Positions 22,495 through 40,823 of a DNA stretch of 64,000 nt are shown in pieces. Source of the DNA: Gammaproteobacteria bacterium. GTDB taxonomy: Bacteria; Pseudomonadota; Gammaproteobacteria; Pseudomonadales; Azotimanducaceae. The position numbers and the translations under genes were made by a program. Below the pieces are notes generated by a model, which did not search any database, was not told the origin of the DNA, and was given only the letters and a program-made list of their open reading frames with translations. The stretch spans positions 592,627 to 656,626 of the forward strand of contig VXNM01000010.1 of NCBI GenBank assembly GCA_009840545.1, given 5' to 3'. Positions within the stretch are counted from its first letter, which is position 1. The number at the start of each line of letters is the position of its first letter.

Positions 22495-23130
22495 ATTGCA
22501 TTGCCTCTTTTTCTATGTAATTTCGAACACAGTGAGCAGGGCGAAGCGGGACACTCTCAACCGCAGCATCAACTCTCCTGCACTCATGAGTTCTTATGTG
22601 TACTTTAGCAGATTTAACGAGATAAAGGAAGCGACTCCAATGCGGTCAAAGGCGCACGAAATGATCTAGAAAAGGGTTATACGGTTCGCAATTCGAGAGT
22701 CGTTAATCTCGTAGGTTCAGCATCTCTCTTAGACCATGGCACAGTCGCGGGGTGTAACCGTTCAAGTGGATGAACTTTGCGGGAATGTCTACCAGCTCGA
22801 AGGCGATGAAATTTTGCCTGGGAATCCCTTTCAAGATTGATCAGAAATCTTGCGGACACGAGAAAGATTCTGATTGGTTTGCACAGTATGGATGATGAGC
22901 GCAAGGTAGCCTGAGAAGTCTGGGTGCTGCGGTGTTTCTTGAGCACCACCAATTCAAGAAATAACCCTGGAATTGACACCGTACTTCAGAGAAGTGCCAG
23001 AGTCCGACTGATCTCGTTCGTCAATTTCAGTGAAATTCTGGCTCGGACGCATTTTGTCAGTTCTTGGTTTAAGAAAGCCCGATGCGGTTGACGCGTCCCT
23101 TGAATTCATGGTTGCATGGATTGGCCGCGC
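22495..23130 (-). other. Gap with no intact gene between receptor gene and its decayed copy
   Basis: About 640 bases. Short open frames on the minus strand (for example around 22677-22979) have no recognisable domain and change frame often, which fits decayed coding sequence. Directly before the receptor start is AAAAGAGGCAATGCAAT, which contains the likely ribosome-binding site AGAGG. I see no tRNA or strong terminator. Confidence 0.4.
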
Positions 23131-23592
23131 TTAATTTAGCTCCTGAAACACGTCCTTCATGTCCGAACTACCCAAATCTCGCTCGCGTTTTGCGTCAATT
23201 ACTTGGACTAGCGCCGTATTGTTGATTGACGAATTCTCCGTCTTATGTGGAGATACTGACCCTGCAAACACAGTGACTGCACTGAGTGTGCGGGTATTGG
23301 GTTGCCTTTTGAAAGGTTCTAGCCGCATCGGCAAGTCCTGCTTCTCGATCCACCTTTTCGCTCACGACTGTTAGTGGTGAGCTGATGTAGGAAGCAGTAT
23401 GCTTCAACCGTGCTCCCCGAATGGGTTGGCGTTCCACGTCCGTATCGAGATCGTTCATCGATTTGGATTTGCAGAGGAAGCTTCTTCCATGCCTTCATGT
23501 GCATCTTGCGCCGCCGATGCACGTGACCAAGAAAACACTGCCATCACGATCAACAACGCAAGAGTGAATTACTGCCCGAATTGAGTGGTCAT
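23131..23592 (-). pseudogene. Decayed N-terminal copy of the TonB-dependent receptor gene
   Basis: Starting at an ATG at 23592 there is a frame with TAA as codon 8, then FTLALLIVMAVFSWSRASA, clearly similar to the live receptor's signal peptide (LLWLLTLLVLSWSLASW). After a shift of frame comes a stretch from about 23455 to 23300 with RGARLKHTASYISSPL and VDREAGLADAARTF, matching GSRLKRSTYDNISPL and VEREAGLVDTAEIL of the live receptor. The leader GAAAAGGCAATGCAAT before the ATG is also nearly identical. At least one nonsense codon and one or more frameshifts are present and the plug and barrel are missing, so this is a remnant of a duplicated receptor gene. Confidence 0.75.
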
Positions 23593-23892
23593 ATTGCATT
23601 GCCTTTTCACATATGGAAGCTCGAAAATCGTGCACGGAAAGTGCGGACGAATCTCCTGATTACCCTAACAGATTACTGAACGGATTAGCAAACTTCTGGA
23701 TGCATAAAAAGATGCGACCAGAGAATCTATGCTAGCCTCATTGATTGCTACAAGTCGGCTTGAACTGCACGTATTGAGGCAATCCAACGCAATTCGTTGG
23801 AGTATTCCAGCCACCACTGACATTTGGTCTTAGAGGTCTGATTATTAAAGAAAAAAGCTGTTACAGGGGGACCATCCAATGCAAGACTTAGC

Positions 23893-24111
23893 TTATTTAT
23901 TTCGATTCGATTTTTGGTTGGATTTTTGGGACAGCATTGTCTTCAGTGCACTCATTCCATAGCCAATTAGAATCGTCGCACCCACAATGAACAAAGCAAA
24001 CCAAAATTTTTCCCAGGTAGAATCGAAGTCCTCCAGAATGAGCAGTGCTAGGGCAAAGATCAGCCCGAAGTTTAAGTAGAACTCAAACTTCGATTTCATA
24101 CCTTCCATCAC
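23893..24111 (-). CDS. Small two-helix membrane protein of unknown function
   Basis: A 72-residue protein with two hydrophobic segments (about 10-27 and 35-55) joined by a short acidic, Trp-containing loop (DFDSTWEKFW), and a basic Asn/Lys/Ser-rich tail (SQKSNQKSNRNK). By the positive-inside rule the tail is cytoplasmic. It is the last of a minus-strand run of envelope-type genes. No family recognised; moderate confidence that it is real, based on the clear membrane pattern. Confidence 0.5.
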   Translation of the reverse strand: MMEGMKSKFEFYLNFGLIFALALLILEDFDSTWEKFWFALFIVGATILIGYGMSALKTMLSQKSNQKSNRNK

Positions 24112-24246
24112 AACTACGTCCTTGTGCTTTCAATGTAGTGTGTTCGCTTGCGTCTGGCTTGATTTCCCGGCGAACTAGTCGATTCAACGTTGGCAAGCTC
24201 CGTAGAGCTTGAAGATCTGACCGATGCCAGAAAGAATGCTCGGAGC

Positions 24247-35101: not shown

Positions 35102-36154
35102 TTGCTAGGATTTACAGCCCTCTCCAGCTCCTGCACTCACGTGGACTACCCCAAACAGCCTGATACTTACGCCAGCATCTTCAGGACTGAAACTGATGTG
35201 CAACTTCCGGCAAAACCGGACAATCGCACTCGCTACATGTACTTCAAGACTATCGCACGAGGCGGAAAGTGTGTCATTAGCTCTTGCAAAGATCTTCACC
35301 TGAGACGTACAGTTTGCTACAAGACGTTGCGACCTGAACTCGCCAAGAATCCTGCGGAACAAGAGAGATTCTTGCGCGAAGCGCGAATTACTGCGATGCT
35401 GCAGCACCCCAATACGATACCGACCTACGAACTAGGCCGAGATGTGCGTGGAAACTATTACTTCACCATGAAGTTGGTTCATGGTTCAACACTCCGTGAG
35501 TTGATCCAGCGATGCATCGAACGCCGAACTCACCAAGTCGAGGGATTTGGACTTCCCAGACTCATCGAAATCCTCATGCAAGTGTGCCACGCAACACATT
35601 ACGCCCATATTCACGGAGTCGTACACAGAGACATCAAACCCGAGAATGTGCTGGTCGGGGACTTTGGCGAGGTCATGTTGCTAGATTGGGGCACAGCCAA
35701 GGTATGGGATGACAGCAGTAGGTCAAATGTCCATGAGGACATGCTTTCTCCCGAATTCAAGCTTGCAAAAATCGACATAAGCGATTCAAACATTGAGCTG
35801 ACCCGTCGTGCCCCGCTGGATGGTACTCCGCCGCACATGTCAACGGAGCAACTGCTCGATCCTCTAGATATTGACCACAGAACTGACATCTACAGTATTG
35901 GTACTGTTCTGTATGAGATTCTGACGTTGCGGCGAATGTTTCGGGGAGAGGACGTGGAATCGGTTTTGGAACGCATTCGAAATCGAGATTTTGTGCCACC
36001 GCGAGAGCGAAGTCCAAATTTGGACATTCCAATCGAACTGGAGGATATTTGTCTACGATGCACTTTGCTCAACCGAGAGGAGAGGTTTCAATCGGTAGAC
36101 ACTCTCATCTCCGAACTTGAACGATGGACGCACCAAGCCAGAGCAGCTAGCTAA
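35102..36154 (+). CDS. Serine/threonine protein kinase (Hanks type)
   Basis: A soluble kinase of about 350 residues with no membrane helix or sensor domain. The glycine loop is modified (IARGGKCVISSCKD, 51-64), the ATP Lys is in VCYKTL (about 74), the catalytic loop is HRDIKPEN (175-182), and the Mg-binding DFG is DWG (195-197). The substrate-binding segment reads GTPPHMSTEQ (241-250) in place of a standard APE. These variants occur together in a bacterial kinase subfamily, so activity is likely. Start is unsure: TTG at 35102 or GTG at 35141; neither has a strong ribosome-binding site. It follows the esterase on the same strand by 176 bases. The SUMF1-fold operon is close by, but linkage is only positional. 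Confidence 0.85.
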   Translation: MLGFTALSSSCTHVDYPKQPDTYASIFRTETDVQLPAKPDNRTRYMYFKTIARGGKCVISSCKDLHLRRTVCYKTLRPELAKNPAEQERFLREARITAMLQHPNTIPTYELGRDVRGNYYFTMKLVHGSTLRELIQRCIERRTHQVEGFGLPRLIEILMQVCHATHYAHIHGVVHRDIKPENVLVGDFGEVMLLDWGTAKVWDDSSRSNVHEDMLSPEFKLAKIDISDSNIELTRRAPLDGTPPHMSTEQLLDPLDIDHRTDIYSIGTVLYEILTLRRMFRGEDVESVLERIRNRDFVPPRERSPNLDIPIELEDICLRCTLLNREERFQSVDTLISELERWTHQARAAS

Positions 36155-36225
36155 TCGGCCCGTACATGGGAGTGTGTTCCTCTCTTTGCTAAGATAGCTT
36201 CGCTTGCCGAATTGAGGAAAATCGG

Positions 36226-36444
36226 ATGGACGTGAAGATCACATATTGCAATTCTTGAGGCTACAAACCTAAAGCGGCCAGTTTGGCTGCAAAACTAGAG
36301 AGCGAACTTCAAGCTAGCGTCGAACTGATTGCTGGAGGCGGCGGGATCTTTGATGTGGATGTCAACGGATCAATCGTTTACTCGAAGCATCAGACCGGCG
36401 AATTTCCGGACGAAACATCGCTAGTCGATCAACTTCGCGCCTAA
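36226..36444 (+). CDS. Rdx/SelW-family selenoprotein (Sec encoded by TGA at 36256-36258)
   Basis: A 72-residue thioredoxin-like protein read through an in-frame TGA. It begins MDVKITYCNS, then TGA, then GYKPKAASLAAKL. The redox motif is C-x-x-Sec (Cys 8, Sec 11) after the first strand, exactly where the SelW/SelT/SelH (Rdx) family has it. The rest fits the family too: an alpha helix, GGGGIFDVDVNGSIVYS, and the hallmark SKHQTGEFPDE near the end. ATG at 36226 has GAGGAAAA ahead. A hairpin of SECIS type lies 15 bases after the TGA. Expected role is thiol redox chemistry; partners are unknown. Selenocysteine machinery (SelA, SelB, SelC, SelD) must be elsewhere. The gene stands alone between the kinase and thiG. 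Confidence 0.85.
36259..36300 (+). promoter_or_regulatory. Candidate bacterial SECIS element
   Basis: Fifteen bases after the TGA, GCGGCC (36274-36279) pairs with GGCTGC (36285-36290), six pairs including one G-U, around the loop AGTTT. A G within the first two loop bases and this distance from the TGA are the known traits of bacterial SECIS stem-loops read by SelB. Confidence 0.65.
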
Positions 36445-36486: not shown

Positions 36487-37293
36487 CTAGGACGCTTGAT
36501 TCTGAACTTTTGATTGCCAGAAAGGCGTACCCACGATAGGCGTCGAAGCATGGGCTGTGTCGCTTGGTGCCATCGGTCCAGCGAGATACGCTAATCGTCC
36601 AGCTTTTACTGCGTGGCTCATTGCAGTTGCCATTGCCACCGGATCATCCGCGGTTGCCACGGCAGTGTTGACTAGTACGCCATCAAATCCCAATTCAAGA
36701 GCAGTTGCAGCATGGGAAGGCAGACCGATTCCTGCGTCGACGAGCAATTTCGCGTCCGGAAGGCGATCTCGAAGAGTCTCCAGCGCGTAGGTGTTGATTA
36801 GTCCCTTGCCTGTCCCGATCGGTGATCCCCAGGGCATGATGACTTCACACCCTGAGTTGTACAGTCGTTGGCACACGACCAAGTCGTCTGTGCAATAGGC
36901 GAAAACCTTAAAATCCAGTGCAAGTAATTGTTCGGTCGCGGTTAGTAGCTCGTAGGGATTGGGTTGGAGGTTGTACTCGTCGCCGGTAACCTCGAGCTTG
37001 ATCCAATTCGTTTCGAATATTTCTCGACTCATTTGCGCTAGAGTTACGGCCTCATGCGTACTGTGGCAGCCTGCTGTGTTGGGAAGAATATGGCAACCCA
37101 ATTTAGAGATCCGATCCCATATGTTTTGTCCTCCCTTTGTTGCCGGTGACTGACGGCGCAAACTGGTCGTGACAACTTCCGCCCCAGACTGTTGAATAGC
37201 ATCCTCCATGATCGCGGGCGAAGGGTAGCGAGCGGTTCCGAGAAATAGTCGACTGTTCAGTTGCACCCCGTATACGTCCCACGCATCAGACAT
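36487..37293 (-). CDS. thiG: Thiazole synthase
   Basis: Joins deoxyxylulose phosphate, dehydroglycine and the ThiS thiocarboxylate into the thiazole of thiamine. The 268-residue TIM-barrel has the Schiff-base Lys region [22 protein letters not shown] and [13 protein letters not shown] for phosphate binding, and VLVNTAVA. The ATG at 37293 is one base beyond the thiS stop; a longer frame to 37377 overlaps thiS and is not used. Last gene of thiC-thiO-thiS-thiG. Converges on the selenoprotein gene. Confidence 0.95.
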
Positions 37294-37294
37294 C

Positions 37295-37492
37295 CTAGCC
37301 TCCCTCAATTGGGGAGAGGACATCGAGACTATCGCCCTCTTGGACCCGGTAGTGGGACCAAGACTCCTTCTCCACAAATTCTTGATTGACCGCTACGACA
37401 ACCTTGTTGCATTGGTAGCCTAGTTTCTCGAGTATGTTCGTCAGTCGATGTGATGCTACATCGACTTTGTCACCGTTTACGAGTATGCGAAT
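37295..37492 (-). CDS. thiS: Sulfur carrier protein ThiS with a non-standard ATT start
   Basis: A 65-residue ubiquitin-like sulfur carrier, beginning [14 protein letters not shown] and ending in the required Gly-Gly (SPIEGG, stop TAG). No ATG, GTG or TTG is in frame at the 5' end. The frame opens between ATT codons at 37495 and 37492, preceded at a good distance by a perfect AAGGAGG (37510-37504) within the end of thiO. I therefore infer initiation at ATT, 37492 or 37495. It overlaps thiO by 16-19 bases and is followed by thiG with one base between, so it is in a coupled operon. The C-terminal Gly is activated by ThiF, which is not in this window. Confidence 0.88.
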
Positions 37493-38461: not shown

Positions 38462-40363
<1,902 letters not shown>

Positions 40364-40380
40364 CTAGCATGGTCGAGGTA

Positions 40381-40458
40381 CGTTCCCTACGCCGGTACTA
40401 ACCGGATCAGGTTCTACGGGTTCGCAAGTCGCGTCTCAACCGAACGGTACCCCGACTA
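40381..40458 (-). promoter_or_regulatory. TPP (thi-box) riboswitch controlling thiC-thiO-thiS-thiG
   Basis: Read on the minus strand, the leader has the conserved blocks in order: TCGGGGTACC, GGTTGAGA (consensus GGCTGAGA, one change), GAACCTGATC, CCGGTTAGTACCGG, GCGTAGGGAAC. The stretch 40380 to 40349 leading to the thiC start, which includes the ribosome-binding site, is the likely expression platform. No T-tract terminator is seen, which points to control of translation. A -10-like TATACT (40470-40465) lies just upstream, with a poor -35. Confidence 0.93.
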
Positions 40459-40823
40459 ACCTATAGTATAAACATGACTGAGCGGACTATTGTCGATTTT
40501 CTTGTGCGAGTATTGCGAAAGAACGACGTGACAAATGAATTGCTTTCTACATCTATTCCTGAAGTGAATAGGTCAAGGCAAGAGGTATTCGGTTAATGTG
40601 GTTGAGCACAATGCTTGCAAGAATAGGCTTCAACGTGAAATCATTGGTCACCCAAACGAAGTTTGAGCCTGCCTTTCAAATGGAAAAACACTATGGAACT
40701 CAATCCAGGTAATTGGGTCTATGTTTTCATTCTGGAGAGTCAATTGGTGGCGTTTGAGCCAGTGAGTCAGACCCGAACTTCGCGCCGCTACTACAAGCTC
40801 TTTCGCGTGGGGGGAGGATGCAC
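40459..40823. other. Gap between thiC leader and the barrel-protein gene
   Basis: Holds the thiC promoter region at its left end. A possible 44-codon plus-strand frame at 40693-40827 ends in an ATGA overlap with the next gene. Otherwise I see nothing. Confidence 0.4.

Follow-up and report, generated by a model that had tools for sequence, protein, structure and literature searches.

A SelW-like selenoprotein gene with an in-frame TGA codon and a conserved SECIS hairpin in an uncultured gammaproteobacterium

Gene structure and protein family

The gene at positions 36226–36444 (plus strand) of the window, the whole 64,000-nucleotide stretch of DNA analysed here, almost certainly encodes a bacterial SelW-like selenoprotein, with a UGA codon decoded via SelB and a SECIS element, selenocysteine (Sec) at codon 11 and a product of the Rdx family. 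This reading builds on features that were computed directly: the frame, the family, the conserved TGA codon, a conserved and covarying hairpin, the genes of the Sec machinery and the predicted fold. The SelB mechanism of Sec insertion is well established. In the present gene, SelB-GTP with Sec-tRNA(Sec) would bind the hairpin just 3′ of the UGA, and Sec would be placed at codon 11 instead of termination. In the resulting 72-residue, thioredoxin-like Rdx product, the Cys8-x-x-Sec11 pair would probably act as a thiol/selenol reductant, a role in which both the redox chemistry and the substrate are inferred.

A single frame runs from the ATG at 36226–36228 through the TGA at 36256–36258 to the TAA at 36442–36444, giving 72 codons plus the stop. 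Its product reads MDVKITYCNSUGYKPKAASLAAKLESELQASVELIAGGGGIFDVDVNGSIVYSKHQTGEFPDETSLVDQLRA, with U at position 11. A possible ribosome-binding site, GAGG, lies at 36214–36217 on the same strand, 8 nt 5′ of the ATG, and is suggested by the sequence only. When ordinary open reading frames of at least 50 residues are listed, the selW frame is represented only by a 53-residue frame beginning at TTG 36283. The preliminary description of this DNA had placed a C-x-x-TGA motif after the first strand, at the Sec position of the family, and had named SKxxTGEFPDE as a family hallmark. Both were recovered, the former as C8-N-S-U11 behind a strand modelled at residues 2–8 and the latter as SKHQTGEFPDE.

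A Pfam search of the product returned Rdx (PF10262) alone, at 72.1 bits (cut-off 22.6; E = 4.5e-20). The NCBIfam model TIGR02174 (CXXU_selWTH) was also passed, at 60.2 against 34.2, while the narrower NF041051 (Campy) was narrowly missed (84.1 versus a cut-off of 88 bits). The comparison with family models proposed in the preliminary description thus upholds the assignment to Rdx/SelW. With phmmer, eight distinct PDB sequences were matched, including mouse SelW (2npb), C17orf37 (MIEN1) and bacterial SelW-related structures. The C8 and U11 columns are invariant in 22 aligned proteins. An AlphaFold2 model built from 22 sequences (mean pLDDT 88.0, pTM 0.71) has the order of elements E-H-E-E-E-H-H. 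A Foldseek search with this model gave 23 matches at E ≤ 0.001, all of them chains of the eight PDB entries found by phmmer (SelW, SelW-related, MIEN1/C17orf37 and hypothetical proteins), with thioredoxins coming next at weaker E-values. TM scores normalised by the query were 0.86–0.91 against the SelW-related 2fa8 and 2p0g. The predicted fold of the product is therefore the thioredoxin-like Rdx fold.

To look for similar genes nearby, TGA-containing frames were scanned across the window, keeping those with a redox-like motif, at least 150 bases and less than 60% overlap with long frames. Of 750 frames, 21 passed these filters, and by eye selW alone was convincing. Elsewhere in the window, about 1.27 kb (22980–24246) is free of any selected open frame of at least 100 residues.

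Conservation of the TGA codon and the SECIS hairpin

TGA occupies the Sec column in all 54 homologous loci analysed, the copy in the window (L020) counted. These represent 44 distinct coding sequences, as some genomes are present in both collections; six stop-free distant matches are not among the 54, one of them being L049, the only one of these fetched as a locus. Among 58 genomes, the window's own included, 33 had a match (35 matches in all), of which the 29 best have exactly one TGA each and the six weakest, at 31–33% identity, are stop-free. A scan of a contig collection with six query patterns, none covering the Sec position, found 25 loci, every one with TGA at that position. Across 229 genomes spread over the class, matches were present in 32, two of which have the TGA (the window's own genome and G148); the other 30 lack it and are distant (26–40% identity). 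The closest named relatives are gammaproteobacterial metagenome-assembled genomes (MAGs). According to the available text of PMC1794560, SelW-like is one of several families for which Sec-using organisms have hardly any Cys homologues or none at all; the lack of a close Cys form among the relatives here agrees with that statement. One locus, L067, comes from a MAG labelled Alphaproteobacteria, and its selW flanks resemble those of the Phycisphaerales/Phycisphaerae MAGs L065 and L066; this may reflect transfer or mis-binning.

The frame 3′ of the TGA evolves as protein-coding sequence. Compared with L021, the nearest relative found, the codons after the TGA hold 26 synonymous and 5 non-synonymous differences, where about 24% synonymous would be expected for random single changes. 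An alternative is that translation really ends at this TGA, or that the codon arose by sequencing error or as a pseudogene lesion, the gene then being a decayed or misread Cys form of SelW. In its favour are the weak single-sequence statistics of the hairpin (below) and the fact that TGA terminates ordinary frames in this genome, the selA frame for example. Against this stand the TGA in 54 of 54 loci, the intact frame and the synonymous bias beyond the TGA, and we regard a stop or lesion as exceedingly unlikely. The preliminary description had held that close relatives with the frame broken elsewhere as well would refute it; the relatives analysed keep the frame with this single TGA.

The putative SECIS hairpin lies at 36274–36290 on the plus strand (GCGGCC-AGTTT-GGCTGC), 15 bases separating the TGA from the stem. 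It has six pairs, one of them G-U, and the second loop base is a G, the 23rd base after the TGA. The preliminary description had likewise given a stem of six pairs beginning 15 bases after the TGA, with G as the second loop base. RNAfold adds an A-U pair, giving seven pairs and a GUU loop, so that a G falls within the first two bases of the apical loop in either form. The bacterial SECIS model in the available text of PMC13188914 calls for an apical loop of 3–9 nt, an (upper) stem of 4–16 bp and a G at the first or second loop position, with most elements 16–37 nt from the UGA. Tested against these constraints, as had been suggested beforehand, the window hairpin conforms.

Taken alone, the window hairpin is not significant: its fold z-score is −0.44, and 9.3% of 300 synonymous recodings do equally well. 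Under our own implementation of the SECIS rules (loops of 3–8), a hairpin of this kind exists in every one of the 44 sequences, and in 39 of them the loop is at the same place, with individual p ≤ 0.05 in just 12 of the 44 (300 synonymous recodings each). Significance comes only from comparison across relatives, not from folding of single sequences. In an alignment of the 44 sequences (A2), 96.1% of 308 cells are paired, versus at most 46.8% in slid versions. The 12 unpaired cells fall mainly at the outermost pair (7), three inner pairs accounting for the rest (1, 2 and 2), and RNAalifold, unaided, recovers the inner six of the seven pairs. Cells with double changes number 19, against a shuffled mean of 4.6; the pairs affected by double changes (2) and the further pair types seen (7) are no more numerous than in shuffles.

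The stem overlaps a conserved A-x-S-L-A-A stretch of the protein, and its pairing might thus be a by-product of selection on those residues even if Sec is inserted. We recoded the sequences synonymously 1000 times, keeping the protein and taking codon usage from outside the stem. The observed mean of 6.73 pairs out of 7 compares with 4.86 in the recodings (maximum 5.25), and all seven pairs form in 33 of the 44 sequences, compared with 1.6 expected (maximum 6). After thinning to 26 sequences below 75% identity, the means are 6.65 observed and 4.83 recoded. Moreover, 43 of the 44 sequences have a serine in the loop, and all 43 encode it as AGT, a codon used for 14 of the 188 serines in the rest of these genes; the remaining sequence has Gly (GGT) there. 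Since protein-preserving recodings pair far less well and the loop codon is fixed, an origin in the protein stretch alone is very improbable, and the hairpin signal across relatives is far beyond chance.

Selenocysteine machinery and further selenoprotein candidates

The window's own genome (3.39 Mb, 14 contigs, 96.5% complete) was searched for selA, selB, selC and selD, as the preliminary description had advised, and all four were found. Its tRNA-Sec scores 72.7 bits and is called tRNA-SeC by ARAGORN; SelB, SelA and SelD score 388, 522.7 and 261.6 bits, all over cut-off. selA adjoins selB on contig 2, and selD lies on contig 3, about 3.5 kb from selC. By itself, the tRNA-Sec cut-off is a loose test: 5 of 14 controls exceed it, as do all six genomes searched, including one (G042) that has no selA match. 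The earlier proposal had also stated that a full genome devoid of Sec machinery would refute it; SelA, SelB, SelD and tRNA-Sec are all present.

SelD makes up the C-terminal portion of a 725-residue fusion protein (12462–14639 of L075, minus strand), in which it is preceded by a pyridine nucleotide-disulfide oxidoreductase domain. Among NCBIfam models, the fusion scores 375.2 with TIGR03169 (cut-off 310) and 258.8 with TIGR00476 (cut-off 125); with TIGR04369, named 'fusion_not_SelD', it reaches 436.9 and stays under the cut-off of 700. At its presumed Sec/Cys site the SelD part has GGCGSK, and given that placement this SelD is the Cys form.

In the set of 58 genomes, own genome included, 29 combine the TGA form with a selA match, 12 have a selA match only, 17 have neither and none has the TGA form alone (Fisher 5e-7, a value that ignores kinship). 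Two of these assignments rest on matches under cut-off: that of G032, a TGA-form genome whose selA match comes in two pieces, and that of G034, which has a selA match only. This distribution bears on whether an amino acid other than Sec is inserted at the TGA, through a reassigned code or general suppression, given that the frame by itself does not name the residue. The presence of selA, selB, selC and selD in the genome, the restriction of the TGA form to genomes with a selA match, the conserved SECIS element and the use of TGA as terminator of ordinary frames all speak against such a reading, leaving it a minimal probability. From the conserved TGA, the SECIS element, the machinery and the co-occurrence with selA, we infer that Sec is inserted at residue 11. 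The machinery genes, the co-occurrence and the conserved SECIS element likewise sustain the earlier view that the organism probably uses Sec.

The genome holds a second likely selenoprotein, suggested by its sequence features: a Prx-like redoxin at 1815–2519 of L087 (contig C8 of the own genome, TGA at 126135), with an NWUGYC motif (U-G-Y-C) and a SECIS-like hairpin after the TGA. None of its ten NCBIfam matches reaches the cut-off. An AhpC-TSA search of the genome gave 23 matches, of which this frame is the only one with an in-frame TGA. Searches of the same genome with CMD/AhpD found no match, with DSBA six and with Molybdop_Fe4S4 two, none with a stop. At its presumed Sec/Cys site the formate dehydrogenase has RVCHSP, which would make it the Cys form. 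Prx-like UxxC selenoproteins are listed in the available part of PMC13188914.

Known SelW proteins and gene neighbourhood

Relative to known bacterial SelW-like selenoproteins, the gene shares the family, the CxxU motif, a SECIS element next to the UGA and Sec machinery in the genome; we found no difference of substance, the lineage alone differing. With eukaryotic SelW (mouse 2npb) it has the Rdx fold in common, by sequence and structure match. The bacterial Rdx structures 2fa8, 2obk and 2p0g, which we take to be Cys-type proteins, share the fold (TM normalised by the query 0.86–0.91) at about 27–31% identity to the product; stop-free Rdx frames in relatives are likewise distant, within the range of identities given above. 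According to the available text of PMC1088965, the SECIS element of eukaryotes, unlike the one here, is located in the 3′ UTR and differs in its features.

Such SelW-like selenoprotein genes are already well known, as the portions of three sources available to us make clear. In the Sargasso Sea survey (PMC1088965), SelW-like (CxxU) is the most abundant family, with 48 genes and an unclear function; in the Global Ocean Sampling study (PMC2398784), its 427 sequences are the largest number in the rows of Table 2 available to us; and Table 1 of PMC13188914 lists a bacterial SELENOW-like family (PF10262, CxxU). NCBI models for the family (TIGR02174, NF041051) also pre-exist. A literature search on sponge symbionts and selenoproteins found nothing to the point. 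An interaction with glutathione is reported for the SelW family in the available text of PMC1088965, and the product described here is possibly glutathione-linked. With this locus, Sec use is documented for a clade of uncultured bacteria, Gammaproteobacteria by the lineage of their named relatives, together with at least one other likely selenoprotein. The locus also illustrates that a hidden selenoprotein can be correctly read from raw sequence.

Upstream of selW, a protein kinase domain protein is encoded at 35102–36154 on the same strand (Pfam Pkinase, 2.7e-31), ending 71 bases before the gene. Downstream, thiG at 36487–37377 on the minus strand (Pfam ThiG, 3.9e-96) is convergent with selW. 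The kinase upstream, with thiG and an FAD-dependent oxidoreductase downstream, flanks selW in 9 of 26 loci (the window plus the 25 of the contig collection); this arrangement did not turn up in the remaining 17, where the flanking sequence is in some cases short. The order kept in one clade, kinase, selW and then thiG and the FAD-dependent oxidoreductase on the other strand, might reflect a working link, although we consider this improbable: the selenoprotein could act with, or be regulated by, a Ser/Thr-type kinase, or could protect thiazole synthesis. If true, such a link would give bacterial SelW a physiological partner. Farther downstream, a TPP riboswitch (40367–40464, minus strand, 68.4 bits) lies just 5′ of a minus-strand gene at 38462–40348, presumably thiC.
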